Shown here one piece after another: positions 3,082 to 60,426 of a DNA stretch of 64,000 nt. The notes under the pieces were generated by a model, which saw only the letters and a list, made by a program, of their open reading frames with translations, ran no database searches and was not told the origin of the DNA. Made by a program: the position numbers and the translations under genes. Source of the DNA: Crossaster papposus. Its lineage: Eukaryota; Echinodermata; Asteroidea; Velatida; Solasteridae. Position 1 is the first letter of the stretch. Each line of letters starts with the position of its first letter. The stretch is taken from contig JBAIAA010000352.1 of the NCBI GenBank assembly GCA_037893245.1, forward strand, positions 1,488,001 to 1,552,000, in the 5' to 3' direction.

Positions 3082-4365
3082 CTATTCTCCTTGCATAGAT
3101 GGCTTGCAGTCAGTCAGACTAGAGCATTGTTTCTGGGGAGAACTTGCAAGCGCTGGGGTCCCCGCTGGTTCTGGATGTACTTCAACATGCACTTGAACAT
3201 GCTGCTGACTGTGAATGGATGCCTTGCTGCTGCTTGGCATGGAACATTGTTCTTGACAGCTGTCTAGTGACTGCTGACTCTCTGGGTGTTGTGCATGCTC
3301 TTGGCTTGGTGGCTTGCTGCTGTTTGGCCTGGCAGCATGGTGCTCTTGGTCATTTTCTGCCTGTGGAATCACACGAAGCTCAATCTGCCTCCCAGGCTGC
3401 GATGATCGGCTGGGATTCTGTCTTGGGCAGCAACGACAGCACAGTTTGAGGAATGAGAAAGCCTTGACTACAGCTGCACGATAGTCTGCGTTTGTGGCAC
3501 TGTAGACCAGGGAATTGATTGAACTATTGATAAGCTCAAAACTGTTATGACATATAAACAGAATATATATTTTTTCTGTAAGTTGTATAAATTCAACAGT
3601 ATGTGAATTTGTATGTACGGAAATGTTTTGGTGCACAATTAAAAGAATTGACAATGCAGTGCCCATTAAGTTCAAAATGAAGAAAACAGCAGTATTGATG
3701 ATCACCATACAGAGGACCTTGCCTGCTTGCTTGGGACTGTTTGGCAACAGGGCTGATTGTCTGCGCACTTTCACTACCACATAGATGTACAAAGCAAGAG
3801 TTGCTATCAAGCAAACAATGGCAATAATGGAATTAATCCAAAAGACAACTTTATCAAAGATAGTCTTTGGTAAGAATATCAGAATCAAACCAACAATGAT
3901 TGTAGGCACCCAGAGTCCTGCAGATATCTTTGCTGCTCGAGATTTAGAGGCTTTCTCTTTGTGTGTCAGAGGATTACGCACTGCAGAGAATCTCTCAAAT
4001 GCTATGGTGACCACAAAGAAAAAAGAATCAGCAAGAAGCGTGTATCTGACAACTCTCCATACGTTTTGAACAAGGAGGTTGTACTTGAAGGGTGAACATA
4101 ATGCAAATATAAAGTCACTCATAAGGAAGAGCGAGTCACCCACAGCCAGATTGGATAAGTAGATGTTGATGATTGTACGCATGGACTTCACTCGAAAGAC
4201 TGTGAAGAGAAACACAAAGTTGAAGAGGATGCCGATTGGTGCAATGATTTCAGCACTTAACCACGTTATTTCGTTTGTTCTGTCTCTACTCTTGTAATAG
4301 CTCTCAAGATGCTTGTGTACTTCAGGTGACAGAGTAGAGTTGTCTTCTTGGTAGCCATCAGCCAT
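3082..4365 (-). CDS. GPCR-1: atypical rhodopsin-like receptor, 427 aa
   Basis: A single-exon seven-helix receptor predicted at the cell surface; the ligand is unknown. Residues 1-37 are a short ectodomain with one N-glycosylation sequon (N9-S-T). TM1 spans about 38-58 with N49 (N1.50). TM2 has SNLAVGD with D77 (D2.50). TM3 ends in E124-R125-F126. W152 is W4.50. TM7 has N284-S-L-V-Y288 in place of NPxxY, followed by a CCRCC palmitoylation-like cluster. The usual TM3 and ECL2 cysteines, the TM5 proline and TM6 CWxP are absent. The tail from about 340 is Ser/Gln/His-rich. The TAG stop replaces the CAG of GPCR-2 and -5, and a 2-nt deletion follows, so the tail is truncated. G76, M82 and F123 differ from nearly all paralogs. 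It forms a close pair with GPCR-4. Confidence 0.85.
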   Translation of the reverse strand: MADGYQEDNSTLSPEVHKHLESYYKSRDRTNEITWLSAEIIAPIGILFNFVFLFTVFRVKSMRTIINIYLSNLAVGDSLFLMSDFIFALCSPFKYNLLVQNVWRVVRYTLLADSFFFVVTIAFERFSAVRNPLTHKEKASKSRAAKISAGLWVPTIIVGLILIFLPKTIFDKVVFWINSIIAIVCLIATLALYIYVVVKVRRQSALLPNSPKQAGKVLCMVIINTAVFFILNLMGTALSILLIVHQNISVHTNSHTVEFIQLTEKIYILFICHNSFELINSSINSLVYSATNADYRAAVVKAFSFLKLCCRCCPRQNPSRSSQPGRQIELRVIPQAENDQEHHAARPNSSKPPSQEHAQHPESQQSLDSCQEQCSMPSSSKASIHSQQHVQVHVEVHPEPAGTPALASSPQKQCSSLTDCKPSMQGE

Positions 4366-4495
4366 AGTTTATGTACAGTGTAGCATTTCCAACATTATTT
4401 GCAGATGCAGTGTAGGTATTCTTGTTGTAAGAACACTAACAGAGAATCTTTGAGGTGTGTGCAGTTGAAACTGAAATCTGCTTTGTGTCCTCTCC

Positions 4496-4506
4496 CCTTT
4501 TATATA
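4496..4506 (-). promoter_or_regulatory. Type-A TATA box of GPCR-1
   Basis: The minus strand reads TATATAAAAGG about 130 nt upstream of the ATG, followed by a GGGGAGA stretch. The same block precedes GPCR-2, GPCR-9 and the 61.8-kb pseudogene, and a variant precedes GPCR-4. This predicts a 5' UTR of about 100 nt. Confidence 0.6.
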
Positions 4507-4660
4507 TTCTCTTTGTTTATTTAGGATAAGTTTGTATACATTGTTTGTAAATTACGTTGGTGATGAAGGAAACATAAACAGTATTCAATTTACCGGTACA
4601 TCATCCCGACACTAATTGAAACATTTGGTTGCGGAACTCGCTGCTATTGGGATTTCAACC

Positions 4661-4740: not shown

Positions 4741-4866
4741 ATTTTTGTTTATAAAAAACGTTGGTAGCTACGGGTAAAATACTTTTGGCCATGCACAGGG
4801 AAGATGGGTTAGTCCATAAATAAGGGGTCCAAAAGTGTGACATTTGTGGGTGTCCTGGTTACACCT

Positions 4867-6285: not shown

Positions 6286-6339
6286 TCTCTTGTAATAGTT
6301 TTCAAGATGCTTCTTTACGTCATTCGATAGAGTGGCCAT
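6286..6339 (-). pseudogene. GPCR N-terminal stub (head fragment 2)
   Basis: The minus-strand ATG is at 6337-6339 and reads MATLSNDVKKHLENYYKR. Homology to receptors then stops at the same codon as in fragments 1, 3, 4 and 5. A type-B promoter follows to about 6540, but its TATA is changed (ccagttttctac on the plus strand). Confidence 0.7.
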
Positions 6340-9166: not shown

Positions 9167-11185
9167 TTACATGGATGGTTTGCACTCATCAGTTACCAGA
9201 GAACATTGTTCTTGACAACTTTCTAACGATTGACTCCCTTCTGGTTCTGGATGTGCATATTGCTGCCCTTGTGATGATGGCTCGGTGCCAGTCAACCCAG
9301 GACATTTTTCCTGAGTACTAGCAAGTGACTGCTGGCTCTCTGCTGGTTCTGGATGTACACACTGTTCCCTTTGCATGGATGGCTTTTTGTCAGTCAGACT
9401 AGAGCATTGTTTCTGGTGAGAACTTGCAAGCGCTGGGGTCCCCGCTGGTTCTGAATGTACCTCAACATGCACTTGAACATGCTGCTGACTGTGTGTAGAT
9501 GCCTTGCTGCTGCTTTGTCTAGAACATTGCTCTTGACAGCTGTCCAGTGACTGTTGACTCTCTGGGTGTAGTGTATGCTCTTGGCTTGGTGGCTTGCTGC
9601 TGCTTGGCCTGAAACATTGTTCTTGATAGCTGTCCAGTGCCTGCTGACTCTCTGGGTGTTGTGCATGCTCTTGGCTTGGTGGCTTGCTGCTGCTTGGCCT
9701 GAAACATTGTTCTTGATAGCTGTCCAGTGCCTGCTGACTCTCTGAGTGTTGTGACTGCCCTTGGCTTGGTGGCTTGCTGCTGCTTGGCCTGGAACATTGT
9801 TCTGGACAGCTGTCCAGTGACTGCTGACTCTCTGGGTGTTGTGCATGCTCTTGGCTTGGTGGCTTGCTGCTGCTTGGCCTGAAACATTGTTCTTGATAGC
9901 TGTCCAGTGCCTGCTGACTCTCTGGGTGTTGTGCATGCTCTTGACTTGGTGGCTTGCTGCTGCTTGGCCTGAAACATTGTTCTTGATAGCTGTCCAGTGC
10001 CTGCTGACTCTCTGAGTGTTGTGACTGCCCTTGGCTTGGTGGCTTGCTGCTGCTTGGCCTGGAACATTGTTCTGGACAGCTGTTCAGTGACTGCTGACTC
10101 TCTGGGTGATTTGCACGCCCTTGTCTTGGTGGCTTGCTGCTGCTTGGTCTGGCAGCATGCTGCTCTTGGTCATTTTCTGCCTGTGGAATCACAAGAAGCT
10201 CAATCTGCTTCCCTGGCTGCGATGGTCGGCTGGGATTCCGTCTTGGGCAGCAACGACAGCACAGTTTGAGGAACGAGAAAGCCTCGATAACAGCTGCACG
10301 ATAGTCTGCGTTTGTGGCACTGTAGACCAGGGAATTGATTGAACTATTGATAAGCTCAAAAATGTTATGACATATAGTCAAAATGTACACTTTTTCTGCT
10401 AGTTGTAAAATTTCAACAACCTGTGAAGGTGTATGTATGGAAAACTTTCTTAGCACAATTACAAGAATTGACAATGCAGTGCGTATCGAGTTCAAAATGA
10501 AGAAAACAGCAGTATTGATTATCACCATACAGAGGACCTTGCCTGCTTGCTTGGGACGGTTTGGCAACAGGGCTGATTGTCTGCGCACTTTCACTACCAC
10601 GTAGATGTACAAAGCAAGAGTTGCTATCAAGCAAACAATGGCAATAATGGAATTAATCCCCCAAACTACATTATCAAAGATAGTCTCTGGTAAGAACATC
10701 AGAATCCCCCCAACAGTGATTGTAGGCATCCAGACTCCTGCTGATATCTTTGCTGTTCGAGATTTAGAGGCTTTTTCTTTGTGTGTCAGAGGATTACGCA
10801 CTGCAGAGAATCTTTCAGCTGCTATGGTGACCACAAAGAAACTAGAAACAGCAAGAAGCGTGCATCTGACACTTAAATATGCTTTTTGCCCAAGGAAGTT
10901 GTACTCGATTGGTGAACACAATGCAAATATAAAGTCACGTGTAAGGAAGAGTGAGTCAGCCACAGCCAGATTGGATAAGTAGATGTTGATGATTGTACAC
11001 ATGGACTTCACTCGAATGACTGTGAAGAGAAACACAAAGTTGAAGAGGATCCCGATTGGTGCAATGATTTCAGCACTTAACCACGTTATTTCGTTTGTTC
11101 TGTCTCTACTCTTGTAATAGCTCTCAAGATGCTTGTTCAATTCAGGTGACATAGTGGAGTTGTCTTCTTGGTAGCCATCAGCCAT
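9167..11185 (-). CDS. GPCR-2: receptor with expanded repeat tail, 672 aa
   Basis: The longest receptor in the array. Residues 1 to about 310 form the atypical seven-helix core: GILFN in TM1, AVAD in TM2, AAERF after TM3, GVW in TM4, NSLVY in TM7 and CCRCC after helix 8, with no CWxP and no ECL2 cysteine. Residues about 346-555 are seven tandem 30-residue units with the pattern RPSSSKPPSQ...HPESQQ..DS.QEQC. Three more diverged units (about 34 aa) follow to KPSM. Units 2-4 repeat as units 5-7, so a three-unit (270-bp) block duplicated. The tail is Ser/Gln/Pro-rich, probably disordered and cytoplasmic, with one QEQC or PEQC cysteine per unit. The start MADGYQED is shared with GPCR-1, -4, -6, -8 and -9. 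The type-A TATA lies about 130 nt upstream. Confidence 0.85.
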   Translation of the reverse strand: MADGYQEDNSTMSPELNKHLESYYKSRDRTNEITWLSAEIIAPIGILFNFVFLFTVIRVKSMCTIINIYLSNLAVADSLFLTRDFIFALCSPIEYNFLGQKAYLSVRCTLLAVSSFFVVTIAAERFSAVRNPLTHKEKASKSRTAKISAGVWMPTITVGGILMFLPETIFDNVVWGINSIIAIVCLIATLALYIYVVVKVRRQSALLPNRPKQAGKVLCMVIINTAVFFILNSIRTALSILVIVLRKFSIHTPSQVVEILQLAEKVYILTICHNIFELINSSINSLVYSATNADYRAAVIEAFSFLKLCCRCCPRRNPSRPSQPGKQIELLVIPQAENDQEQHAARPSSSKPPRQGRANHPESQQSLNSCPEQCSRPSSSKPPSQGQSQHSESQQALDSYQEQCFRPSSSKPPSQEHAQHPESQQALDSYQEQCFRPSSSKPPSQEHAQHPESQQSLDSCPEQCSRPSSSKPPSQGQSQHSESQQALDSYQEQCFRPSSSKPPSQEHAQHPESQQALDSYQEQCFRPSSSKPPSQEHTLHPESQQSLDSCQEQCSRQSSSKASTHSQQHVQVHVEVHSEPAGTPALASSHQKQCSSLTDKKPSMQREQCVHPEPAESQQSLASTQEKCPGLTGTEPSSQGQQYAHPEPEGSQSLESCQEQCSLVTDECKPSM
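9520..10150 (-). repeat. 90-bp coding minisatellite in GPCR-2 tail
   Basis: Seven copies of a 90-bp unit, in frame with the receptor. Because 90 is a multiple of three, two other frames are also open and give spurious 180-aa ORFs. The order A-B-C-A-B-C of unit subtypes shows a 270-bp block duplication by unequal exchange. Confidence 0.9.
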
Positions 11186-11315
11186 AGTTTATGTACAGTG
11201 TAGCATTTCCAACATTATTTGCAGATGCAGTGCAGGTATTCTTGTTGTAAGAACACTAACAGAGAATCTTTGAGGTGTGTGCAGTTGAAACTGAAATCTA
11301 CTTTGTGTCTTCTCC

Positions 11316-11326
11316 CCTTTTATATA
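11316..11326 (-). promoter_or_regulatory. Type-A TATA box of GPCR-2
   Basis: TATATAAAAGG on the minus strand, 131 nt upstream of the ATG, within a block nearly identical to the GPCR-1 promoter. Confidence 0.6.
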
Positions 11327-13231: not shown

Positions 13232-13285
13232 TCTCTTGTAATAATTTTAAAGATGCTTGTTTACTTCATTCGATAGAGTGGCCAT
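13232..13285 (-). pseudogene. GPCR N-terminal stub (head fragment 3)
   Basis: ATG at 13283-13285; the frame meets a TAA after HL, so even the stub is broken. Homology ends at the shared breakpoint (tctcttgtaata). The type-B promoter continues to about 13500. Confidence 0.7.
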
Positions 13286-16010: not shown

Positions 16011-17228
16011 TCAAACTATACTAGAGCATTGATCCCGATTAGAACTTGCAAGTGCTTGGGTCTCGGCTGGTTCTGCATGTACCTCAACATGCACTTGAAC
16101 ATGCTGCTGACTGTGTGTGGATGCCTTGCTGCTGCTTTGTCTAGAACATTGTTCTTGACAGCTGTCCAGTGACTGCTGACTCTCTGGGTGATTTGCACGC
16201 ACTTGGCTTAGTGGCTTGCTGCTGCTTGGCCTGGCAGCATGGTGCTCTTGGTTATTTTTTGCCGGTGGAATCACACGGAGCTCAATCTGCTTCCCTGGCT
16301 GCGATGGTCGGCTGGGATTTAGTCTTGGGCAGCAAGGACAACACAGTTTGAGTAATGGGAAAGCCTCGACTACAGCTGCACGATAGTCGGCGTTTGTGGC
16401 ACTGTAGACCAGGGAATTGATTGAACTATTGATAAGCTCAAGAATTGTATAACATGAAAACAGAATGTACATTTTGGCTGTAAGTTGTAGAAGTTCAACA
16501 GCCTGTGAAGTTGAATACTTGCTTTGCACAATAACAAGAATTGACAATGCAGTGCGTATTGAGTTCAAAATGAAGAAAACAGCAGTATTGATGATCACCA
16601 TACAGAGGACCTTGCCTGCTCGCTTGGGACGGTTTGGCAACAGGGCCGATTGTCTACGCACTTTCACTACCACATAGATGTACAAAGCAAGAGTTGCTAT
16701 CAAGCAAACAATGGCAATAATGGAATTAATCCCAAAAACTACATAATCAAAGATAGTCTCTGGTAAGAACATCAGAATCACACCAACAATGATTGTAGGC
16801 ATCCAAACTCCTGCTGATATTTTTGCTGCTCGAGATTTAGAGGCTTTTTCTTTGTGTGTCAGAGGATTACGCACTGCAGAAAATCTCTCAGCTGCTATGG
16901 TAACCACAAAGAAATGAGAAACAGCAAGAAGCGAGTATCTGACAACTACCCATACTCTTTGACCAAGAAAGTTGTACTCGATGGAACACAATCCAAAGTT
17001 ACTCGTAAGGAAGAGTGAGTCAGTCACAGCCAGATTGGATAAGTAGATGTTGATGATTGTACGCATGGACTTCACTCTAATGACTGTGAAGAGAAACACA
17101 AAGTTGAAGAGGATGCCAATTGGTGCAATGATTTGAGTACTTAACCACGCTATTTGGTCATTTCTGTCTTCACTCTTGTAAAAGTTTTCAAGATGATTGT
17201 TTACTTCATTCGATAGAGTGGCCATCAC
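16011..17228 (-). CDS. GPCR-3: atypical rhodopsin-like receptor, 405 aa
   Basis: Seven-helix core as in the paralogs, with AVTD in TM2, AAERF, GVW and NSLVY. The N-terminus (MMATLSNEVNNHLENFYKS) is a different class from MADGYQED receptors and has no N-glycosylation sequon. The segment before TM3 is shortened (SNFGLCSIEYNF). Its TM6-TM7 link (SKYSTSQAVELLQLTAKMYI) is almost identical to that of GPCR-8. The tail stops early (SSIV) because five extra bases relative to GPCR-1 shift the frame; tail-like coding continues beyond the stop. Either of the two first ATGs could be used. It sits directly under an intact type-B promoter with no module X between. Confidence 0.85.
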   Translation of the reverse strand: MMATLSNEVNNHLENFYKSEDRNDQIAWLSTQIIAPIGILFNFVFLFTVIRVKSMRTIINIYLSNLAVTDSLFLTSNFGLCSIEYNFLGQRVWVVVRYSLLAVSHFFVVTIAAERFSAVRNPLTHKEKASKSRAAKISAGVWMPTIIVGVILMFLPETIFDYVVFGINSIIAIVCLIATLALYIYVVVKVRRQSALLPNRPKRAGKVLCMVIINTAVFFILNSIRTALSILVIVQSKYSTSQAVELLQLTAKMYILFSCYTILELINSSINSLVYSATNADYRAAVVEAFPLLKLCCPCCPRLNPSRPSQPGKQIELRVIPPAKNNQEHHAARPSSSKPLSQVRANHPESQQSLDSCQEQCSRQSSSKASTHSQQHVQVHVEVHAEPAETQALASSNRDQCSSIV

Positions 17229-17338: not shown

Positions 17339-18070
17339 ATATAACATCTTGAGATCTTCTAAAAGTGTGTAGTTGAAACAGAAAGTTTTGTTGACATTTC
17401 CTTTTAATTTCCCCTTAATTCTCAAAGACCTATTGTAATGCACGTGATATGCATGTATCTCATGACAGCATTTACCAAAGCAGTCATTTTCGTTTCGCTA
17501 CTGCCATTTAGAATTAAAGTTGTTTCAGTTTTTAGTATTATGTACAATCTGTATTTCCTTGATTGAAGTTGGTTGATGTAACCGATAATGAAAAGTGACA
17601 ATACTAAAGCTTCTTTAACCCTAACCCTCCCAGATCCATCCAAATCCATCCAAATCCATACCCTTATTTTGTTTTTGTTTGTTTGTTTGTTTTGTTGTTG
17701 TGGGGGAGGGACTTGGTCCTACAGGCCTGGGGTGAATATATTTGGATTATGATGGATGTTGGCACTGTTAGGAGAATGGGACTGATTTTGTCCATCGTGC
17801 AGTGATGAGCTGTTGTTCATCAATATCAACCACCACTTGAGTAGATTTGGGTGGATTTGGTCCTGTACTTAAAATGCAGTAGGGTATGGAACTCCAAAGA
17901 GGCATAAACTCCAACCAACACATTGATCAGTCTTATTTACATCGATTGGTCTTTTACATCTATTGATTGGTCCTTCCATCAATCGGTCTTTTACATCGAT
18001 CGATTGGTCTTTTACATCGATCACACTTTGCAATTATGTGTCACAGTTTACATATACGTAAACCTAAACT

Positions 18071-20240: not shown

Positions 20241-21524
20241 CTATTCTCCTTGCATGGATGGCTTGCAGTCAGTCAGACTAGAGCATTGTTTCTGGGGAGA
20301 ACTTGCAAGCGCTGGGGTCCCCGCTGGTTCTGGATGTACTTCAACATGCACTTGAACATGCTGCTGACTGTGAATGGATGCCTTGCTGCTGCTTGGCATG
20401 GAACATTGTTCTTGACAGCTGTCTAGTGACTGCTGACTCTCTGGGTGTTGTGCATGCTCTTGGCTTGGTGGCTTGCTGCTGTTTGGCCTGGCAGCATGGT
20501 GCTCTTGGTCATTTTCTGCCTGTGGAATCACACGAAGCTCAATCTGCTTCCCAGGCTGCGATGATCGGCTGGGATTCTGTCTTGGGCAGCAACGACAGCA
20601 CAGTTTGAGGAATGAGAAAGCCTTGACTACAGCTGCACGATAGTCTGCGTTTGTGGCACTGTAGACCAGGGAATTGATTGAACTATTGATAAGCTCAAAA
20701 CTGTTATGACATATAAACAGAATATATATTTTTTCTGTAAGTTGTATAAATTCAACAGTCTGTGAATTTGTATGTACGGAAATGTTTTGGTGCACAATTA
20801 AAAGAATTGACAATGCAGTGCCCATTAAGTTCAAAATGAAGAAAACAGCAGTATTGATGATCACCATACAGAGGACCTTGCCTGCTTGCTTGGGACTGTT
20901 TGGCAACAGGGCTGATTGTCTGCGCACTTTCACTACCACATAGATGTACAAAGCAAGAGTTGCTATCAAGCAAACAATGGCAATAATGGAATTAATCCAA
21001 AAGACAACTTTATCAAAGATAGTCTTTGGTAAGAATATCAGAATCAAACCAACAATGATTGTAGGCACCCAGAGTCCTGCAGATATCTTTGCTGCTCGAG
21101 ATTTAGAGGCTTTCTCTTTGTGTGTCAGAGGATTACGCACTGCAGAGAATCTCTCAGCTGCTATGGTGACCACAAAGAAATAAGAATCAGCAAGAAGCGT
21201 GTATCTGACAACTCTCCATACGTTTTGAACAAGGAGGTTGTACTTGAAGGGTGAACATAATGCAAATATAAAGTCACTCGTAAGGAAGAGTAAGTCAGCC
21301 ACAGCCAGATTGGATAAGTAGATGTTGATGATTGTACGCATGGACTTTGCTCGAAAGACTGTGAAGAGAAACACAAAGTTGAAGAGGATGCCGATCGGTG
21401 CAATGATTTCAGCACTTAACCACGTTATTTCGTTTGTTCTGTCTCTACTCTTGTAATAGCTCTGAAGATGCTCGTTTACTTCAGTTGACAGAGTAGAGTT
21501 GTCTTCTTGGTAGCCATCAGCCAT
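20241..21524 (-). CDS. GPCR-4: atypical rhodopsin-like receptor, 427 aa (sister of GPCR-1)
   Basis: By my count it differs from GPCR-1 at 12 of 427 residues. Ten lie before residue 130: four in the ectodomain (P14T, H17N, K18E, E21Q) and the rest in TM1-TM3. It keeps the consensus A76, T82 and A123 where GPCR-1 is unusual, but has A59 (FRAKS) and L78 (ADLLF). The core motifs are otherwise the same: N49, D77, ERF, W152 and NSLVY. It has the same truncating TAG and the same 2-nt deletion past it, so the truncation predates the duplication. The 5' flank is the TATAAAAAGG variant of type A. Confidence 0.85.
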   Translation of the reverse strand: MADGYQEDNSTLSTEVNEHLQSYYKSRDRTNEITWLSAEIIAPIGILFNFVFLFTVFRAKSMRTIINIYLSNLAVADLLFLTSDFIFALCSPFKYNLLVQNVWRVVRYTLLADSYFFVVTIAAERFSAVRNPLTHKEKASKSRAAKISAGLWVPTIIVGLILIFLPKTIFDKVVFWINSIIAIVCLIATLALYIYVVVKVRRQSALLPNSPKQAGKVLCMVIINTAVFFILNLMGTALSILLIVHQNISVHTNSQTVEFIQLTEKIYILFICHNSFELINSSINSLVYSATNADYRAAVVKAFSFLKLCCRCCPRQNPSRSSQPGKQIELRVIPQAENDQEHHAARPNSSKPPSQEHAQHPESQQSLDSCQEQCSMPSSSKASIHSQQHVQVHVEVHPEPAGTPALASSPQKQCSSLTDCKPSMQGE

Positions 21525-21657
21525 TATAGTTCATGTTCAGTGTAGCATTTCCAACATTATTTGCAGATGCAGTGCAGGTATTCTTGATGTAAGAACACTA
21601 ACAGAGAATCTTTGAGGTGTGTGCAGTTGAAACTGAAATCTGCTTTGTGTCCTCTCC

Positions 21658-21667
21658 CCTTTTTATA
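21658..21667 (-). promoter_or_regulatory. Type-A TATA box variant of GPCR-4
   Basis: TATAAAAAGG on the minus strand, about 135 nt upstream of the ATG; one T longer than in GPCR-1 and GPCR-2. Confidence 0.55.
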
Positions 21668-23637: not shown

Positions 23638-23691
23638 TCTCTTGTAATAGTTTTCAAGATGCTTGTTTACTTCATTCGATAGAGTGGCCAT
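23638..23691 (-). pseudogene. GPCR N-terminal stub (head fragment 4)
   Basis: ATG at 23689-23691; reads MATLSNEVNKHLENYYKR and breaks at the shared point. The type-B promoter with an intact TATA follows to about 23910. Confidence 0.75.
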
Positions 23692-29096: not shown

Positions 29097-29119
29097 CATG
29101 AGCAGTGTAGCTTGGAGCT

Positions 29120-29837: not shown

Positions 29838-29846
29838 CTTGGAGCT

Positions 29847-34702: not shown

Positions 34703-34785
34703 CATGTGCAGTGTAGCTTGGAGCTGCATCCAACATTTTCTGGAGATACAGCGAAGCGCATTTGTCCTATTTCAAGATTGCTCCA

Positions 34786-36626: not shown

Positions 36627-38009
36627 CTAGACATGTGTTTGTGGACAAACACAGAGCTGTTTCGGATGTCTAAGATAACTTTCATTATGTGTGTGCCAAG
36701 TCTGAAATCCCGATGATGTCATCATGATGTCATCTTAATTTTCGTCTTTTACACATTCTGGAATACTTGCATACCAAGTTTGGCCCCAATCAGACATGTA
36801 CTTCCAGAGATAGAGGGTCCTAAAATCTGCCCCTTTAATGTGACGTCATATGACCCACGATGACGTCATCCTGACGATTTCCCCCTTGGCCCTCCTGGGT
36901 ATGGTGGTCGAGATGTGTGCCAAGTCTGAAGTCGATCGGATTTACCAAATTGTCAAATTCAATAGTCTGAAGAAAAACGTGTACAAAACCTATGGAGAAA
37001 ATTGAACCTTTAATGTGACGTCACATGACACCCGATGATGTCATAATTACGTCTTCCTATTTTTTGTCTATAACACATCCTCGAATACTTGCAAACCAAG
37101 TTTTACCCCAACCGGACTTGTACTTTCAGAGTTAGACGGTCTTAAAAACTACACCTTTAATGTGACGTCACATGACCCCCGATGACGTCATCTTGATTAT
37201 TTTGTTCTTGACCCTCCTAAGGATGGTGGTCGAGGTCTGTGCTAAGTCTCAAGTCGATCGAATTGACAGAAGTGTCAAATTCAATATTTTGAAGAAAAAC
37301 GTGTACAAATCCTATGGGAAAAACTGCACCTTTAATGTGACGTCACATGATACCCGATGATGTCATCATGATGTCATCTTAATTTTCGTCTGTAACACAT
37401 CCTGGAATACTTGCATACCAAGTTTGACCCCAATCGGACATGTACTTCTAGAGATAGAGGGTCCTTAAAACTAAACCTTTAATGTGACGTCACATGACCC
37501 ACGATGACGTCATTATTACGATTTTTCCCTTGGCCCTCCTGGTGATGGTGGTCGAGTTATGTGCTAAGTCTGAAGTCGATAAAATTCACGAAAGTGTCAA
37601 AGTCAATAGTCTAAAGAGAAACGTGTACAAACCCTATGGGGAAAAAAATTGCACCTTTAACTTCACGTCACGTGACCTTGAATGACGCAATCGTGCCATA
37701 TTTATTTCAGAAACATCTGGGGGTGGTATTCTAAGTGTATGCCAAGTTTCAAGTCGGTCGGATTTACCGAAGTGCCAAAGTCAATAGTCTGAAGAAAAAC
37801 GTGTACAAAACCTATGGGGAAAATTAAACCTTTAACGTGACGTCACGTGACCTTGAATGACGCAATCGAGCCAAATTTCTTCTAGGACCATCTGTGGGTG
37901 GAGGTCTAAGTGTATACCAAGTCTCAAGTCGATTGGATTCAGCAAAGTGCCAAAGTGTATTGGCAGAACAAACGTGTGTAAATCCTATGGGTAAAAACAC
38001 TGAAAGTGG

Positions 38010-39419: not shown

Positions 39420-40667
39420 CTAGAGCATTGTTTCCCGGGGAGAACTTGCAAGTGCTGGGGTCCCCGCTGGTTCTGCATGTACCTCAACATGTGCTTGAAC
39501 ATGCTGCTTCTGCGTGGATAACTTGCTTCTGCCTTGCCTGGAACATTGTTCTTGACAGCTGTTCAGTGACTGCTGACTCTCTGGGTGTTGTGCACGCACT
39601 TGGCTTGGTGGCTTGCTGCTGCTTGGCCTGGCAGCACGCTGCTCTTGGTCATTTTCTGCCTGTGGAATCACACGAAGCTCAATCTGCTTCCCTGGCTGCG
39701 ATGGTTGGCTGGGATTCAGTCTTGGGCAGCAACGACAGCACAGTTTGAGAAATGAGAAAGCCTTGACTACAGCTGCACGATAGTCTGCGTTTGTGGCACT
39801 GTAGACCAGGGAATTGATTGAACTATTGATAAGTTCAAAAATTCTTAAACATATAACCAGAATGAAACTTTTTTCTGCAAGTTGTAGAAGTTCAACAACC
39901 TGTGAAGGTGTGGGTGTGGAATCCTTGCTATGCGCAATAACAACAAGAATTGACAATGCAGTGCGTATTGAGTTCAAAATGAAGAAAACAGCAGTATTGA
40001 TGATCACCATACAGAGGACCTTGCCTGCTCGCTTGGGACGGTTTGGCAACAGGGCTGATTGTCTGCGCACTTTCACTACCACATAGATGTACAAAGCAAG
40101 AGTTGCTATCAAGCAAACAATGGCAATAATGGAATTAATCCAGAAGACGACATCATTAAAGATAGTCTCTGGTAAGAACATCAGAATCACACCAACAGTG
40201 ATTGTAGGTGCCCAGAGTCCTGCTGATATCTTTGCTGCTCGAGATTTAGAGGCTTTTTCTTTGTGTGTCAGCGGATTGCGCACTGCAGAGAATCTCTCAG
40301 CTGCTATGGTGATCACAAAGAAACTAGAAACAGCAAGAAGCATGGATCTGACACTTACACATACTTTTTCCGCAAGGAAGTTGTTTAACTTGAAGGGTGA
40401 ACACAAAGCATATATAAAGTCACCTGTAAGAAGGAGTGAGTCGGCCACAGCCAGATTGGATAAGTAGATGTTAATGATTGTACGCATGAACTTCACTCGA
40501 AAGACTGTGAAGAGAAACACAAAGTTGAAGAGGATGCCGATTGGTGCAATGATTTCAGCACTTAACCATGTTATTTGATCGGTTCTGTCTTGACTCTTGT
40601 AATAGCTCTCAAGATGCTTGCTTACTTCATTTAATAGAGTGGAGTTGTCATCGTAACCATCACCCAT
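39420..40667 (-). CDS. GPCR-7: atypical rhodopsin-like receptor, 415 aa
   Basis: Start placed at MGDGYDDN (40667); an in-frame ATG at 40697 would add ten residues of leader. Core: AVADSLLLTGD in TM2, AAERF, GLW and NSLVY. One extra residue lies before TM3 (FKLNNFLAEK), and the TM6-TM7 link is distinct (VIAHSKDSTPTPSQVVELLQ). The tail lacks one residue block (SKLSTQKQHVQAHVEVH) and ends abruptly in SSPRETML because one extra C in a CCCGGGG run shifts the frame. The original tail frame stays open to 39131. A LINE fragment separates it from promoter sequence, as in its sister GPCR-5. Confidence 0.85.
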   Translation of the reverse strand: MGDGYDDNSTLLNEVSKHLESYYKSQDRTDQITWLSAEIIAPIGILFNFVFLFTVFRVKFMRTIINIYLSNLAVADSLLLTGDFIYALCSPFKLNNFLAEKVCVSVRSMLLAVSSFFVITIAAERFSAVRNPLTHKEKASKSRAAKISAGLWAPTITVGVILMFLPETIFNDVVFWINSIIAIVCLIATLALYIYVVVKVRRQSALLPNRPKRAGKVLCMVIINTAVFFILNSIRTALSILVVIAHSKDSTPTPSQVVELLQLAEKSFILVICLRIFELINSSINSLVYSATNADYRAAVVKAFSFLKLCCRCCPRLNPSQPSQPGKQIELRVIPQAENDQEQRAARPSSSKPPSQVRAQHPESQQSLNSCQEQCSRQGRSKLSTQKQHVQAHVEVHAEPAGTPALASSPRETML

Positions 40668-40690: not shown

Positions 40691-41425
40691 CAATCAATCA
40701 TCCGCATAGACAGCAAAGGTCCGTCGTGCCGATCTTCTGTGCCCACGTCCTACAGCCTCATTTCACATATAGTCAATCTCGTTAGGCCGTCCCAGTTGTT
40801 TCGACCAGGATGATCTTGGACGGCCATGGGGTCTCTTCCAGCCGGGAGTTGGCGGTTGACCTCTCCTGGAACTGATGGCAATGCCCAGATAATTTTTGGC
40901 TGGAATGTTGTCAGCAGGAGAGCGACGTGACCAAAGAAGGCGGTTCGGCGACGTTGGATTTGGTGGTTGATGGTTGGCAATCTTGTTCTGCGGGTGACCT
41001 CGTTATTACTGACGAAGTCAAACCACTGGATACCTAGGATCGAGCGTTGACACCTTTGGTGGAATGACTCAAGTCTTCTGAGATCGGATTTGAAGAGTGT
41101 CCAGGTTTCTGAGCCGTACAGCAGGACAGGAATGACACATGTCTGGTATATACCCAGTTTGATGGCGAGTTTCAACTTTTTTAGCCTCCAGATTTTGCGT
41201 AGGCTGTTCATGAAGTAAGGCCGAGTCGTCTGAGGATGTCAGGTTTACTGCGCTCAGTGTTGGAGATCTTGCTTCTAAGATATACAAAATCCTCCACAAT
41301 GTCGACAGACTGTCTGTTCACTGTAATGTGAGAGGGAGTGCTGGTGCTGCTTGGGGTCAATACTTGGATTTTGGTTTTCTGCCAGGAGATGTTGAGTCCA
41401 AGATTGGCAGCAATCTCCCCATCCC
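40691..41425 (-). mobile_element. 5'-truncated LINE fragment, copy 2
   Basis: Duplicate of 29120-29837, with the same flanking CTTGGAGCT (40682-40690, 41426-41434). It has 17 extra bp around 41205-41220 (encoding MNSLRKIW in one frame), so its RT reading frame is split in two. The longer form matches the usual RT pattern, so the 29-kb copy probably lost these bases. Confidence 0.8.
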
Positions 41426-42006: not shown

Positions 42007-42897
42007 AAGTATGATGTCCTTAAGGATAGGGGATGGGGAGGATATATTCCTACTGTTTGACTATAGTGGGATTGGGCCATGGGACCTCGAGTACGATGTC
42101 CTCAAGGATAGGGGATGAGGAGGATATATCTCTACTGTTTGACTAGTGGGATTGGGCCATGGGACCTCAAGTACGATGTCTTCAATGATAGGGGATGAGG
42201 AGGATATATCCCTACTGTTTGACTATAGTGGGATTGGGCCATGGGACCTCAAGTATGATGTCCTCAAGGATAGGGGATGAGGAGGATATATCCCTACTGT
42301 TTGACTATAGTGGGATTGGGCCATGTGACCTCAAGTACAATGTCTTCAATGATAGGGGATGAGGAGGATATATCCCTACTGTTTGACTAGTGGGATTGGG
42401 CCATGGGACCTCAAGTACAATGTCTTCAATGATAGGGGATGAGGAGGATATATCCCTACTGTTTGACTATAGTGGGATTGGGCCATGGGACCTCAAGTAT
42501 GATGTCCTCAAGGATAGGGGATGAGGAGGATATATCCCTACTGTTTGACTATAGTGGGATTGGGCCATGGGACCTCAAGTACGATGTCCTCAAGGATAGG
42601 GGATGGGGAGGTTATATCCCGACTGTTTGACTAGTGGGATTGGGCCATGGTACCTTAAGTAAAATGTCTTCAAGGATAGGGGATGGGGAGGATATATTCC
42701 TACTGTTTGACTATAGTGGGATTGGGCCATGGGTCTTCCGTATGATGTCCTCAAGGATAGAGGATGGGGAGGTTATATCTCTACTGTTTGACTAGTGGGA
42801 TTGGGCCATGGGACCTCAAGTACGATGTCCTCAAGGATAGGGGATGGGGAGTTTATATCCCTACTGTTTGACTATAGTGGGATTGGGCCATGGGACC
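42007..42897. repeat. 80-83-bp minisatellite, about 11 units
   Basis: Same unit as at 30.4 kb. Units alternate between gactagtggg and gactatagtggg forms, giving 80- and 83-bp lengths in a partly regular order. Confidence 0.9.
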
Positions 42898-43150: not shown

Positions 43151-43207
43151 TTTTTGTATACATCTTGTGGCCAAATGGCCAAATTGCAGATATGTTACAG
43201 GCAGATA

Positions 43208-43386
43208 TGATTGTACGCATGGACTTCACTCAAAAGACTGTGAAGAGAAACACAAAGTTGAAGAGGATGCCGATTGGTGCAATGATTTCAGTACTTAACC
43301 ATATTATTTGAACGGTTCTGTTTTCACTCTTGTAATAGTTCTCAAGATGCTTGTTTACTTCAGTCAATAGAGTGGCTATCGCCCAT
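43208..43386 (-). pseudogene. GPCR fragment (ectodomain to ICL1)
   Basis: The minus strand encodes ATLLTEVNKHLENYYKSENR through STEIIAPIGILFNFVF to KSMRTII. The expected ATG is ATA, and a TGA replaces the Arg codon after TM1. It is cut at tgattgtacgc, the same base as the 61.6-kb fragment. The type-B promoter follows to about 43590. Confidence 0.75.
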
Positions 43387-47205: not shown

Positions 47206-48519
47206 TTAGAACTTGCAAGCGCTGGGGTACGTCCCCGCTGGTTCTGCATGTACCTCAACATGCACTTGAACATGCTGCTGACTGCGGGTAGATAACTTGC
47301 TGGTGCCTTGCCTGGAAAATTGTTCTTGATAGCTGTCCAGTGACTGCTGACTCTCCGAGTGTTGTGCATGCTCTGGGCTTTGTGGCGTGCTGCTGCTTGG
47401 CCTGAAACATTGTTCTTGATAGCTGTCCAGTGGCTGCTGACTTTCTGGGTGTTGTGCACACTCTTGGCTTAGTGGCTTGTTGCTGCTTGGCCTGGCAGCA
47501 CGCTGCTCTTGGTCATTTTCTGCATGTGGAATCACACGAAGCTCAATGTGCTTCCCTGGCTGCGATGGTTGGCTGGGATTCTGTCTTGGGCAGCAACGAC
47601 AGCACAGTTTGAGGAATGAGAAAGCCTCGACTACAGCCGCACGATAGTCTGCGTTTGTGGCACTGTAGACCAGGGAATTGATTGAACTATTGATAAGCTC
47701 AAGAATTGTATGACATGAAAACAGAATGTACATTTTGGCTGTAAGTTGTAAAAGTTCAACAGCCTGTGAAGTTGAATACTTACTTTGCACAATAACAAGA
47801 ATTGACAATGCAGTGCGTATTGAGTTCAAAATGAAGAAAACAGCAGTATTGATTATTACCATACAGAGGACCTTGCCTGCTCGCTTGGGACGGTTTGGCA
47901 ACAGGGCTGATTGTCTGCACACTTTTACTACCACATAGATGTACAAAGCAAGAGTTGCTATCAAGCAAACAATGGCAATAATGGAATTAATCCAAAAGAC
48001 GACATCATCAAAGATAGTCTCTGGTAAAAATATCAGAATCACAGCAACAATGATTCTAGGCACCCAGACTCCTGCGGATATCTTTGCTGCTCGAGATTTA
48101 GAGGCTTTCTCTTTGTGTGTCAGAGGATTACGTACTGCAGAGAATCTCTCAGCTGCTATGGTAACCACAAAGAAATGAGAAACAGCAAGAAGTGTGTATC
48201 TGACACCTCCATATACTTTTTGAACAAGGAAGTTGTACTTGAAGTGCGAACACAATGCAAATATAAAGTCACTTGTAAGGAAGAGCGAGTCAGCCACAGC
48301 CAGATTGGATAAGTAGATGTTGATGATTGTACACATGGACTTCATTCGAATGACTGTGAAGAGAAACACAAAGTTGAAGAGGATGCCGATTGGTGCAATG
48401 ATTTCAGCACTTAACCACGTTATTTCGTTTGTTCTGTCTCTACTCTTGTAAAAGCTCTCAAGATGCTTGTTCAATTCAGGTGACAGAGTAGAATTGTCTT
48501 CTTGGTAGCCATCAGCCAT
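47206..48519 (-). CDS. GPCR-8: mosaic atypical receptor, 437 aa
   Basis: The ectodomain and TM1 match GPCR-2 (MADGYQEDNST.SPELNKHLES, RDRTNEITWLSAEII). The TM6-TM7 link (SKYSTSQAVELLQLTAKMYI) matches GPCR-3. Core: AVAD, AAERF, GVW and NSLVY. The tail has two 30-residue repeats of the GPCR-2 type (LDSYQEQCFRPSSS) and ends in AGTYPSACKF because four extra bases (ACGT duplication) shift the frame. As in GPCR-6, the type-A leader is fused to a type-B head and promoter. Confidence 0.85.
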   Translation of the reverse strand: MADGYQEDNSTLSPELNKHLESFYKSRDRTNEITWLSAEIIAPIGILFNFVFLFTVIRMKSMCTIINIYLSNLAVADSLFLTSDFIFALCSHFKYNFLVQKVYGGVRYTLLAVSHFFVVTIAAERFSAVRNPLTHKEKASKSRAAKISAGVWVPRIIVAVILIFLPETIFDDVVFWINSIIAIVCLIATLALYIYVVVKVCRQSALLPNRPKRAGKVLCMVIINTAVFFILNSIRTALSILVIVQSKYSTSQAVELLQLTAKMYILFSCHTILELINSSINSLVYSATNADYRAAVVEAFSFLKLCCRCCPRQNPSQPSQPGKHIELRVIPHAENDQEQRAARPSSNKPLSQECAQHPESQQPLDSYQEQCFRPSSSTPQSPEHAQHSESQQSLDSYQEQFSRQGTSKLSTRSQQHVQVHVEVHAEPAGTYPSACKF

Positions 48520-48589: not shown

Positions 48590-48700
48590 CTAACAGAGAA
48601 TCTTTGAGGAGTGTGCAGTTGAAACTGAAAGCTGAAAGTTCATAAGATGCTTGTTTATTTCATTCGATAGAGTGCAGCTGTCTTTGTAGCCATCACCCAT
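48590..48700 (-). other. Upstream ORF in the GPCR-8 leader (36 codons)
   Basis: Type-B start (MGDGYKDSCTLSNEINKHL) fused to type-A leader and ending in TAG 70 nt before the receptor ATG; same junction as GPCR-6. Confidence 0.55.
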
Positions 48701-48783
48701 CATGTGCAGTATAGCTTGGAGCTGCATCCAACATTTTCTGGAGATACAGCGAAGCGCATTTGTCCTATTTCAAGATTGCTCCA

Positions 48784-51805: not shown

Positions 51806-52411
51806 TTATATGAATGGCTTGTTGTCAGTCAGACTAGAGCATTGTTTCTGGTGGGAACTTGCAAACTCTGGGATCTCCGCTGGTTCTGCATGTACCTCAA
51901 CATGCACTTGAACATGCTGCTGACTGGGCTTGGATAACTTGCTTCTGCTTTGCCTGGAACATTGTTCTGAACAGCTGTCCATTGACTGCTGACTCTCTGA
52001 GTGTTGTGACTGCCCTTGGCTTAGTGGCTTGCTGCTGTTTTGCCTGCAACATTGTTCTGGACAGCTGTTCAGTGACTGCTGACTCTCTGGGTGTTGTGCA
52101 CACTCTTTGCTTGGTGGCTTGCTGCTGCTTGGCCTGGCAGCACGCTGCTCTTGGTCATTGTCTGCCTGTGGAATCACACGAAGCTCAATCTGCTTCCCAG
52201 GCTGCGATGGCTGGCTGGGATTCAGTTTTGGGCAGCAACGAAAGACTGTGAAGAGAAACACAAAGTTGAAGAGGATGCCGATTGGTGCAATGATTTCAGC
52301 ACTTAACCATATTATTTGTTTTTTTCTGTCTACACTCTTGTAAAAGTTCTGAAGTTGCTTGTTTACTTCAGTTGACAGAGTAGAGTTGTCTTCTTGGTAG
52401 CCATCAGCCAT
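51806..52411 (-). pseudogene. GPCR-9: TM1 fused in frame to the tail, 201 aa
   Basis: Residues 1-58 are a normal receptor start (MADGYQEDNSTLSTEVNKQL, SAEIIAPIGILFNFVFLFTV). They are followed directly by CCPKLNPSQPSQPGKQIELR and a full tail with two QEQC/PEQC-type repeats. TM2-TM7 are deleted (about 755 bp compared with sisters). The junction shares CGA with both parents, which suggests a microhomology deletion. The frame is intact, the start is standard and a type-A TATA lies upstream, so a single-helix protein with the receptor tail could be made. It cannot be a GPCR. Whether it is expressed is unknown. Confidence 0.8.
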
Positions 52412-52541
52412 AGTTCATGTACAGTGTAGCATTTCCAACATTATTTGCAGATGCAGTGCAGGAATTCTTGTTGTAAGAACACTAACAGAGAATCTTTGAG
52501 GTGTGTGCAGTTGAAACTGAAAACTACAGTTTGTCTTCTCC

Positions 52542-52552
52542 CCTTTTATATA
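52542..52552 (-). promoter_or_regulatory. Type-A TATA box of GPCR-9
   Basis: TATATAAAAGG on the minus strand, 131 nt upstream of the ATG, in an intact type-A promoter block. Confidence 0.55.
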
Positions 52553-57738: not shown

Positions 57739-58109
57739 AAAGCACAAAAATAGATTTCATTGTGAAAGGTAATCTCTGTCGGTGATGGACAATATGGCTT
57801 TGTGCTCATTTCAGCTGAACAATTACAAATTACAAGTATATTTAGAAGCATGCATCTGCATTTACTCACTTATTTACAACTTCAGTAACGGTAATCACTT
57901 GAGCATTACTGAAACATTTGTTACTCTATTTAAACAAAATTCTCACAGGTTCTTGTTGAACAGAAATGAAATATAGGTGAAAATAAATATTAATTGTTTT
58001 AGAAAATAAATGTGGGCTTGAAATGTCTGAAGTTTAGACTTGTGTGGTACCGGTAGGTCCTATTTGATTTATATTGAGAGTCGGCAATATATTGTCCCTA
58101 AAAAAGAAT

Positions 58110-58315
58110 ACGCAGTGGCTATCATTAAGGCAGTTGACGATCTGATTCCTCGGCTTACCCAGCCCGACATTGGAAAAAATATCTGGTTATCGCTCATGGA
58201 ACCAGACTTTTTGAAAGTCAGGTTCAAAGAGTAAAAGGTTTCAGACTATTGTCAATGTCGGGCCGGGTAAGTCAGGGAATCAGATGATCAACTGCTGTAA
58301 CGATAGTCACTGCGT
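58110..58315. mobile_element. F1 foldback element, copy 9
   Basis: Arms as in copy 1; about 580 bp past the GPCR-10 stop. Confidence 0.7.
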
Positions 58316-58896
58316 TAAGAATATCCCTAAAAAGAGAACACATTGTATTGACATTTTATAGTGAGCTTTTCAGTATTTTGCCAACATTTTGTTCAGTATC
58401 AATATGTGTTATCAGATCATTAGGTATCATGGTTTGGTATCACAAATACATATGTTTAACTGGAATATCACCCAAGTCTAATCAAAACAACTTGAAATAT
58501 TAATCAGTACCGGAGCTCGAATAATGTTTCTACGTTGATTTGAGAGGTGGATATAACAGTAAGTTCTGAGTTCATGCTTCCTTGCATTGAAATGTCCGCA
58601 TCAGTCAATCCTGGATCATTGTTACTGACAACTTGCATCTTTTGAAAAGAGAATTCCACATGGTGTCTCTGCAAACCCTCACTACTTAATCCTGGATCAT
58701 TGTTACTGGAAACTTGCAAGTGTTGCTAGCACTCTTGAGACCGCTGTTCCTCTTGCAGGGATGGGTGGGAAGTCAGTCACCCTGGAACATAGTTCTTGAC
58801 AGTTTTGGAGTGACTGGTTCTTGATGCGCATAATATACTGCTTCTATGACACTAGGCTGTTGTGCCTGGAACATTGTTTGAGAGTTACTTACAAAT

Positions 58897-60426
58897 CTAT
58901 TGTCCACTACATGTACATGTATCTTCTGGCTCTGCACACTGCTGACCTTGCATGGATGGCTTGCACACATCAGTTACCAAATAACATTGTTCTTGACAAC
59001 TTTCCACTGATTGACTCCCTTCTGGTTCTGGATGTGCATACTGCTGCCCTTGTGATGATGGCTCGGTGCCAGTCAGCCCAGGACATTGTTCCTGAGTACT
59101 TGCAAGTGACTGCTGGCTCTCTGCTGGTTCTTGATGTACACACTGTTCCCTTTGCATGGATGGCTTGCAATCAGTCAGACTAGTGCATTGTTTCTTGTGA
59201 GAACTTGCAAGCGCTGTGTCCGCCGCTGGTTCTGCATGTACCTCAACCTGCACTTGAACATGCTGCTGACTGTGCGTGGATGCCTTGCTGCTGCTTTGTC
59301 TAGAACATTGTTCTTGACAGCTGTCCAGTGACTGCTGACTCTCTGGGTGATTTGCACGCACTTGGCTTAGTGGCTTGCTGCTGCTTGGCCTGGCAGCATG
59401 GTGCTCTTGGTCATTTTCTGCCTGTGGAATCACACGGAGCTCAATCTGCTTCCCTGGCTGCGATGGTCGGCTGGGATTCCATCTTGGGCAGCAACGACAG
59501 CACAGTTTGAGGAATGAGAAAGCCTCGACTACAGCCGCACGATAGTCTGCGTTTGTGGCACTGTAGACCAGGGAATTGATTGAGCTGTTGATATATCGCA
59601 GGATTTCTGAACATAGATCCACTATGATTGCTTTTTCTCCAAGTTTCAAATATTCAACAATCTGGGAAGTCGCATCGAAAGGGGGATACAGGTTTAAAAC
59701 AGTGATAATAATTATGGCGGATAAGTCTACTAAGTACAAAATGAAGAAAACAGCAGTATTGATGATCACCATACAGAGGACTTTGCCTGCTCGCTTAGGA
59801 CGGTTTGGCAACAGTGCTGATTGTCTGCGCACTTTCACTACCACATAGATGTACAAAGCAAAAGTTGCTATTAAACATACAATGTTGATAATGGAAGGAA
59901 TCCAAAAGATGAGGTTGGCAAAGACAGTCTCTGGTAAGAACATCAGAATCACAGCAACAATGATTGTAGGCACCCAGAGTCCTGCGGATATCTTTGCTGC
60001 TCGAGATTTAGAGGCTTTTTCTTTGTGTGCCAGAGGATTACGCACTGCAGAGAATCTCTCAGCTGCTATGGTAACCACAAAGAAACTAGAAACAGCAAGA
60101 AGCATGCATCTGACACTTAAATATGCTTTTTGCCCAAGGAAGTTGTACTCGATGGGTGAACACAATGCAAATATAAAGTCACTCGTAAGGAAGAGTGAGT
60201 CAGCCACAGCCAGATTGGATAAGTAGATGTTGATGATTGTACGCATGGACTTCACTCGAATGACTGTGAAGAGAAACACAAAGTTTAAGAGGATGCCGAT
60301 TGGTGCGATGATTTCATTACTTAACCATTTGATTTGATCAATTTTATCTTGACTCTTGTCAAAGTTTTCAAGTTCAACTTTCCACTCATTTGAAGAATTA
60401 GCGCTGTCTTGGTAGCCATCACCCAT
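58897..60426 (-). CDS. GPCR-10: most divergent receptor, 509 aa, full tail
   Basis: The N-terminus is its own class (MGDGYQDSANSSNEWKVELE, sequon at N10). ECL1 and TM3 match GPCR-2 (SPIEYNFLGQKAYLSVRC). The TM6-to-TM7 region is highly divergent (LVDLSAIIIITVLNLYPPFD, SEILRYINSS) between blocks identical to the paralogs (NTAVFFIL and SSINSLVY). Core: GILLN, AVAD, AAERF, GLW and NSLVY. The tail is untruncated and reads past KPSM (CAA where GPCR-5 has TAA) to EDTCTCSGQ. The type-C promoter (TATAAAAC at 60513-60520) differs from the A and B types, and only this gene and the 31.5-kb remnant have it. Confidence 0.85.
   Translation of the reverse strand: MGDGYQDSANSSNEWKVELENFDKSQDKIDQIKWLSNEIIAPIGILLNFVFLFTVIRVKSMRTIINIYLSNLAVADSLFLTSDFIFALCSPIEYNFLGQKAYLSVRCMLLAVSSFFVVTIAAERFSAVRNPLAHKEKASKSRAAKISAGLWVPTIIVAVILMFLPETVFANLIFWIPSIINIVCLIATFALYIYVVVKVRRQSALLPNRPKRAGKVLCMVIINTAVFFILYLVDLSAIIIITVLNLYPPFDATSQIVEYLKLGEKAIIVDLCSEILRYINSSINSLVYSATNADYRAAVVEAFSFLKLCCRCCPRWNPSRPSQPGKQIELRVIPQAENDQEHHAARPSSSKPLSQVRANHPESQQSLDSCQEQCSRQSSSKASTHSQQHVQVQVEVHAEPAADTALASSHKKQCTSLTDCKPSMQREQCVHQEPAESQQSLASTQEQCPGLTGTEPSSQGQQYAHPEPEGSQSVESCQEQCYLVTDVCKPSMQGQQCAEPEDTCTCSGQ

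Follow-up and report, generated by a model that had tools for sequence, protein, structure and literature searches.

Introduction

Tandemly arrayed rhodopsin-like receptors have been described in other echinoderms, and they form the background for the locus examined here, a cluster of single-exon class A G-protein-coupled receptors (GPCRs) in a 64,000-nucleotide stretch of the starfish Crossaster papposus (contig C352, positions 1488001-1552000; hereafter the window). In the crown-of-thorns starfish, the available part of PMC5442662 presents the ApORs as rhodopsin-like receptors in tandem arrays of both orientations, one cluster comprising 12 genes in 140 kb; their extracellular loops (ECLs), third intracellular loop (ICL3) and C-terminus are variable, and cysteines occur at 80% in transmembrane helix (TM) 3, the extracellular loops and TM7. 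The available portion of PMC7042368 describes sea cucumber olfactory receptor (OR)-like genes as mostly single-exon, tandemly arrayed and under purifying selection, and both of these partial sources report echinoderm receptors of similar style from sensory organs. The surreal-GPCRs of sea urchins, as partially described, are likewise an echinoderm lineage-specific expansion of rhodopsin-type receptors, in another echinoderm class. The window proved to be a small part of a larger array, mostly on one strand, of single-exon class A receptors; we consider a chemosensory role, facing the outside world, to be the probable one, although with some reserve.

Two vertebrate groups offer a further comparison. 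Vertebrate ORs also have a single coding exon, lie in tandem arrays, lack the CWxP motif of TM6 and vary in the pocket, and they keep C3.25, a long ECL2 and P7.50. Melanocortin receptors have no TM3-ECL2 disulfide, a very short ECL2 and no P5.50, and they keep CWxP and the TM7 proline. At the level of titles and the beginnings of abstracts, the literature matches listed contained no description of the present receptor family.

Results

Receptor genes of the window and size of the family

We identified nine ATG-to-stop open reading frames (ORFs) of 404-672 amino acids (aa) and one ORF of 201 aa on the minus strand between positions 3082 and 60426 of the window (Table 1). All nine full ORFs matched the Pfam profile 7tm_1 (PF00001) with 48.7-62.6 bits, above the curated cut-off of 30.5, and the 201-aa product I gave no PF00001 match in the Pfam search. 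In product I, an in-frame stretch of 759 nt that is present in gene D is missing, reaching from where TM1 ends to the C-terminal tail. The initial annotation had listed nine full receptors and one deletion product on one strand, and these ORFs are present; two N-terminal fragments and several short 5' remnants had been overlooked. Its wider description, an atypical rhodopsin-like GPCR tandem cluster, is backed by the Pfam matches, by the motifs and by the genome-wide counts.

We searched the assembly (1.02 Gb, 1841 contigs) with a 27-base coding motif that is exact in all nine window genes. The motif occurred at 200 genome sites with at most 3 mismatches (70 forward, 130 reverse), and its reversed control at 0 sites. 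Among 100 exact places listed, 75 fell at 727-1517 kb of C352 (71 on the minus and 4 on the plus strand); since four of the nine window genes were missing among the places listed, this stretch holds at least 79 copies. The array is thus larger than the ApOR arrays and, unlike them, lies mostly on one strand. Searching at the protein level with gene J gave 93 matches (84 scored candidates of 1927); just three of the nine genes in the window were recovered in this way, so the count is low.

The comparisons below cover 28 copies: the nine window genes, L004-L007, and 15 spread copies that were open from the ATG through TM7 among 20 taken from exact 27-mer places. L001 (gene J itself), L002 (an allele of J), L003 (frame broken), L008 (a duplicate of L007) and the broken copies L036, L037, L039, L043 and L053 were excluded. 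This sample leans towards J-like copies because L004-L007 are the best matches to J. Since the frames are open and promoter-like sequence lies 111-142 bp upstream of the ATG in some copies, we infer that the receptor transcripts carry no introns.

Near-identical family copies were also found on contig C717, in opposite orientation and matching several separate parts of C352, which suggests an uncollapsed second haplotype, maybe with segmental duplication mixed in. Other clusters of single-exon class A receptors lie at C532:452-582 kb and on C459, C35, C334 and C686.

The scaffold of the receptors is unusual

We compared the canonical class A positions across the 28 copies, with residue numbering in TM5 and TM6 resting on an alignment by eye. 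N1.50, D2.50, S3.39, E3.49, R3.50, F3.51, W4.50, N7.45, S7.46, S7.50 and Y7.53 were present in 28 of 28 copies and N7.49 in 27, so that the annotated motifs N1.50, D2.50, E-R-F, W4.50 and N-S-x-x-Y are indeed kept. The cysteine pair joining TM3 to ECL2 was missing as annotated: no copy had Cys at 3.25, and none had Cys in residues 148-173 (one copy has Cys at 174 and one at 175). TM6 CWxP was missing as well, as no Trp was found in TM6 or TM7 and no Pro in residues 213-243 (TM6) or 260-300 (TM7); within residues 171-312, Trp occurred only at 174 (2 copies), 175 (17), 309 (1) and 312 (1). The claim that the TM5 proline is lacking holds for most of the 28 copies but not for all, since four have Pro at 177 and one has it at 190. 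C2.63 was found in 25 copies and C7.37 in 27, both together in 24, and R3.32 was also found in 24. C7.37 is comparable to the TM7 cysteine of the ApORs; their TM3 and extracellular-loop cysteines have no counterpart here at 3.25 or in ECL2, and their variable ICL3 contrasts with a nearly invariant one in the present family.

The distance from W4.50 to the putative Y5.58 was 41-43 residues, gap-free in all 28 copies. With a pattern script, candidates for the same spacing were located in 30 of 32 other receptors of the genome, 27 of which had only values of at least 50 (first candidate up to 73), while L017, L019 and L030 also listed spacings of 38, 38 and 44, respectively. These results indicate that ECL2 is short, mostly by 10-20 residues relative to the other receptors. 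By pattern, those 32 receptors carried xWxP in 29 cases, (N/D)PxxY in 30 and a Cys within 3 residues of 3.25 in 27 (two not locatable, three probably mis-anchored); the set is biased towards canonical receptors because it was picked mostly by high 7tm_1 score. Hydropathy analysis gave consensus hydrophobic stretches for all seven helices, with TM7 of gene J below the threshold set. The scaffold is the unusual part of this receptor family. Vertebrate ORs differ from it in keeping C3.25, a long ECL2 and P7.50, and melanocortin receptors in keeping CWxP and the TM7 proline.

No named family was found for the receptors

We then compared the family with characterized receptors. A profile of the nine genes matched the solved structures of CCK1R, BRS3, SSTR4 and TRHR with 41-44 bits, over TM1-TM4, and gene J alone gave a few weak matches of about 29 bits, to delta opioid and KISS1R, that span most of the receptor. 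The best match among the 32 other receptors of the genome was L030 with 44 bits, followed by L058 with 39 bits. L030 matched the QRFP receptor with 246 bits over most of its length, which shows what orthologue-level similarity looks like in this genome; L058, from another tandem array, gave only diffuse matches near 90 bits. Set against these 246 bits, a best match of 44 bits over TM1-TM4 leads us to reject placement in a named peptide-receptor family. In these comparisons the receptors appear to be a divergent lineage within class A that belongs to no named family. Neither a melanocortin receptor nor a vertebrate OR was among the 60 top-scoring sequences listed.

The same matches bear on whether the receptors read internal signals, as lineage-specific neuropeptide receptors whose numbers grew along with a diversifying family of peptides. 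The best solved-structure matches are to peptide receptors and the nearest of the 32 other receptors of the genome is of QRFP type, but the matches are weak, restricted to TM1-TM4 and scattered over many families, and about 200 sites with diversifying pockets are unlike the known low-copy peptide receptors. We therefore regard this explanation as rather improbable.

The initial annotation had also likened the cluster to the sea urchin surreal-GPCR expansions. The likeness, drawn from published descriptions, is one of style only, and the mitochondrial gene order (see below) points to a starfish host. At the six residues of the echinoderm OR-like TM2 motif LxxPxYxxxxxLxxxDxxxxxxxxP, gene J has M61, I64, N66, L72, D76 and I85, that is, 2 of 6; the first five of these residues are invariant in the nine window genes. 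The echinoderm clades OR-l3 and OR-l4 likewise keep only LxxxD, according to the available part of PMC7042368.

Selection differs between the two receptor halves

To compare the two halves of the receptor, we divided the codons into an extracellular and a cytoplasmic set; the split was set before the ratios of nonsynonymous to synonymous differences (pN/pS) were computed, after the alignment of the nine genes had been viewed. The results showed a pN/pS of 0.35 (bootstrap confidence interval [CI] 0.25-0.49) over 150 cytoplasmic-side codons, and of 0.89 (0.73-1.08) over 130 extracellular-side codons. Per region, dN/dS exceeded 1 in the outer part of TM3 (1.76), the outer part of TM6 (1.32), ECL3 (1.28), ECL1 (1.17) and the start of the tail (1.13). 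Pooled post hoc from this per-region table, the 48 codons of ECL1, ECL3 and the outer parts of TM3 and TM6 gave a pN/pS of 1.31 (1.02-1.75). In our own implementation of the codon models, M2a was preferred over M1a (2dlnL 270, omega 3.8), with 35 sites at a posterior >0.9, 32 of them in the N-terminus or the extracellular half. Within the outer parts of TM2, TM3 and TM7, mean entropy was significantly higher (P = 0.0016) at the 21 positions that we take to line the pocket (1.50) than at 32 neighbouring positions (0.81). These results show that the cytoplasmic half is conserved and that extracellular sites, especially pocket positions, are under diversifying selection.

We considered whether copy-to-copy exchange and gaps in the alignment could have produced this signal artificially, in otherwise ordinary chemoreceptors under purifying selection. 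Clonal evolution is rejected for the family (see below), two ECL3 columns are gapped in 10 of 28 copies, purifying selection has been reported for sea cucumber receptors in the available text of PMC7042368, and the extracellular half as a whole stays at 0.89. The preference for M2a persisted, however, in four blocks with separate trees, where 2dlnL was 19.1, 45.9, 32.3 and 98.3 and still significant, and the tree-free pairwise pN/pS exceeded 1 in the four-region set, chosen post hoc as it was. We judge an artefact unlikely, though it deserves to be taken seriously.

As a control, we analysed 20 copies of more ordinary single-exon receptors from the C532 array, which gave 0.90 (0.67-1.21) for the extracellular and 0.33 (0.19-0.55) for the cytoplasmic half. 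This excludes a selection pattern unique to the window family: the evolutionary mode is shared with at least one other array, and the scaffold is what stands out.

Blocks have been exchanged between copies

Copies differed strongly in their similarity from block to block. Between genes B and J the difference is 3.6% for the TM2-TM3 block and 42% for TM6-TM7; between genes C and H it is 2.4% for TM6-TM7 and 20% at the N-terminus. Mosaic pairs, defined by one block at most 2.5% and another at least 20% different, numbered 9 of 378, compared with a mean of 0.09 and a maximum of 4 in 300 clonal simulations, none of which reached nine. The mean block-to-block rank correlation was 0.47, against 0.81 in the clonal simulations. 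These results demonstrate that blocks were exchanged between copies and that clonal evolution is rejected.

Diversifying sites together with block exchange are typical of recognition families, and the receptors might accordingly recognise self, mates or microbes, in an immune or a gamete and conspecific context, instead of serving general chemosensation. Both the class A architecture and the similar pattern seen in an array of ordinary receptors are at least as compatible with chemosensation, and we hold a recognition role to be improbable.

Promoter-like modules precede some of the copies

Each of A, B, D, F, H and I has a 20-base A-type leader 111-119 bp ahead of its ATG, and this leader is preceded at 28 nt by a TATA box in A, B, D and I (Table 1). 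Gene J has a further TATA and A-type leader module 1.5 kb upstream, fronting a gene fragment. The nearest leaders of E and G are 2.6-2.9 kb away and precede other truncated 5' ends. Genome-wide, the leader pattern occurred at 238 sites and the TATA module at 76, with 0 sites for the reversed controls, and all 100 leader places listed were on contigs carrying the coding 27-mer. Three of the 76 TATA-module places are on C21 and C170, where no exact 27-mer was found among the places listed.

From their sequence, the modules look like putative promoters with a start-site motif. A role of the leader as a 3' splice site is not favoured because the B-type leader has no AG and a TATA box stands 28 nt upstream of several A-type leaders. 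An insertion between the leader and the ATG of E was also dropped, since the leader 2.6 kb upstream precedes a J-like 5' end and not the start of E.

Further copies of the B-type leader, each followed by roughly 25 initial codons of a gene, lie 2.1-2.3 kb upstream of A, B and D, and another lies near 208. These recurrent copies, at 208, 6494, 13445 and 23851 (minus strand), then run into unrelated sequence, and the three that are readable to their ends stop at nearly the same position. They are probably remnants carried in the repeat unit. The 5' remnants may alternatively represent spliced upstream first exons; those upstream of A, B and D share a similar end point, with no obvious donor. At 31535-31741 (minus strand), upstream of E, a B-type leader is followed by about 22 codons of a J-like 5' gene end (tblastn E 0.011).

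Feature coordinates and other observations

The coordinates of the features are collected in Table 1. The tail of gene B is lengthened by a 90-bp (30-aa) repeat at 9503-10151. More generally, the Ser/Gln/Pro-rich C-tails are lengthened by 90-bp coding repeats (9503-10151, 47298-47494 and 51938-52136) and also differ in length through in-frame stops. Gene C has a shorter N-terminus than its neighbours and apparently starts at an internal ATG following a small deletion. Intergenic minisatellites with units of 80-82 bp and 322 bp lie at 30420-30731, 36709-37676 and 42007-42897. Related minus-strand ORFs directly upstream of genes E and G (29179-29850 and 40750-41211) presumably resemble C-terminal pieces of reverse transcriptases; in Pfam they gave only sub-threshold matches, to DUF6451 (both) and OrfB_IS605 (the first).

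Table 1. Features of the window (positions within the window; aa, amino acids; Inr, initiator)
Feature	Position	Strand	Remarks
Receptor gene A	3082-4365	-	427 aa; ORF; 7tm_1 56.7 bits
Gene A promoter-like module	4457-4504	-	TATAAAAG box and A-type leader (Inr-like), 28 nt apart
Receptor gene B	9167-11185	-	672 aa; 7tm_1 48.7 bits
Gene B promoter-like module	11277-11324	-	TATA box and A-type leader
Receptor gene C	16011-17225	-	404 aa; ORF and 7tm_1
Gene C B-type leader	17365-17384	-	159 bp upstream of ATG
Receptor gene D	20241-21524	-	427 aa; near-identical duplicate of A
Gene D promoter-like module	21619-21666	-	TATA box and A-type leader
Receptor gene E	27621-29099	-	492 aa; retroelement-like sequence directly upstream, no leader there
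Receptor gene F	33125-34513	-	462 aa; two leaders in series
Gene F A-type leader	34613-34632	-	119 bp upstream of ATG; no TATA module
Receptor gene G	39420-40667	-	415 aa; upstream sequence like that of E
N-terminal gene fragment	43206-43376	-	Matches D residues 10-66; behind B-type leader
Receptor gene H	47206-48519	-	437 aa; two leaders in series
Gene H A-type leader	48611-48630	-	111 bp upstream of ATG; no TATA module
I, in-frame 759-nt deletion product	51806-52411	-	201 aa; TM1 fused to tail; TATA-like and leader motifs upstream
Product I promoter-like module	52503-52550	-	TATA box and A-type leader
Receptor gene J	58897-60426	-	509 aa; 7tm_1 59.4 bits
Gene J B-type leader	60548-60567	-	141 bp upstream of ATG
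N-terminal gene fragment	61640-61815	-	Matches D residues 1-33 and 41-65, frame broken; behind TATA box and A-type leader
Short 5' remnants, about 16-26 codons	4-51, 6289-6336, 13235-13282, 23641-23688, 34628-34705, 48635-48703, 63816-63863	-	tblastn E <= 1.3e-4

Elsewhere in the assembly, contig C1841 (16,330 bases) is the mitochondrial genome, in which COX1 was identified by Pfam, 16S by Rfam and the ND1 and ND2 ORFs by eye. Its COX1 fits translation table 9, with Asn for AAA at a conserved place, and the order is 16S, ND2 and ND1 on the minus strand, then a tRNA cluster and COX1 on the plus strand. In the available part of PMC3308324, inversion of the 16S-ND2-ND1-tRNAs segment next to COX1 is given as a difference between starfish and sea urchins, and gene order groups starfish with brittle stars, which are often rearranged; the available text of PMC7947835 describes the order as conserved within asteroids. 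The order seen here fits a starfish and makes a sea urchin origin unlikely, with a brittle star as a less probable alternative. Contig C8 (5,301,754 bases; L010, L012 and L013), of the size of a bacterial chromosome, contains three COX1-family (PF00115) matches that are stop-free in the standard code, one of them stronger than that of the mitochondrial gene, and may be a symbiont or a contaminant. A further locus, L009 on C356, contains a bindin core (PF02084) adjoining a repeat-containing stretch; bindin is present in both starfish and sea urchins and was given no weight in choosing between them.

Discussion

In this study, we examined a cluster of nine intact receptor genes that forms part of a large tandem array. 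Its receptors are probably chemosensory, and a working model can be outlined as follows. Some copies would be driven by the short promoter-like module just upstream. The copies have a common cytoplasmic half that includes the sodium-site residues D2.50, S3.39, N7.45, S7.46 and N7.49, and coupling to one and the same G protein is therefore expected. The tops of TM2, TM3, TM5, TM6 and TM7 together with ECL1 and ECL3, which form the outward half, differ from copy to copy, this variation being made by point changes under diversifying selection and by block exchange between copies, and R3.32 is a candidate for a shared ligand anchor.

Several results weigh against a chemosensory array of functional receptors. 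The extracellular half as a whole does not exceed a pN/pS of 1, and the synonymous difference is about twofold higher on the extracellular (0.235) than on the cytoplasmic side (0.111), so the contrast between the halves comes partly from a homogenised framework or from older outer blocks. A PHI-type recombination test was marginal, the observed value being equalled or undercut in 99 of 2000 permutations. The TATA module was found in only 5 of the 10 window genes and products, the distal module of J included, and no leader lies directly upstream of E or G. Two predicted structures showed seven long helices and helix 8, but they are poor models (mean pLDDT, the predicted local distance difference test score, 43.5 and 45.1), and a Foldseek fold search with one of them returned nothing at E <= 0.001 (best E 0.028); the top matches were GPCRs, MC5R first, all non-significant. 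The lost motifs could impair signalling. The chemoreceptor candidates of A. planci that were examined by reverse-transcription PCR are also expressed outside sensory organs, as stated in the available part of PMC6267866, so that style is no proof of role. Finally, 5 of the 20 spread copies are broken, and decay is underestimated because these copies were chosen from exact motif sites.

Such decay could mean that the copies spread by unequal exchange with little function, their variable parts being merely relaxed. Besides the broken copies, the 5' remnants and the deletion product in the window, the tail stops in many copies and the lost activation motifs fit this explanation. The framework is under clear purifying selection, however, with a pN/pS of 0.35 (CI 0.25-0.49), and the codon models give a class of sites beyond neutrality, which makes a decaying amplification highly improbable.

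Taken together, the receptors are most likely of chemosensory type and form a divergent subfamily within class A, with an unusually reduced scaffold. More tentatively, and as a proposal that we would expect to need revision, it may represent a starfish class A lineage that signals without the TM3-ECL2 disulfide, the toggle Trp and the canonical prolines of TM5-TM7, possibly with a C2.63-C7.37 bridge, and whose repertoire would arise as pocket-lining blocks are swapped among about 80 or more single-exon neighbours, with exchange maintaining a uniform signalling half.

If the receptors are active, they would show how far the class A activation machinery can shrink with the sodium site and the G-protein face intact. 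They would also offer dozens of different pockets on a single constant frame, as a natural library, and ligand screening could then be extended to a starfish's chemosensory repertoire.

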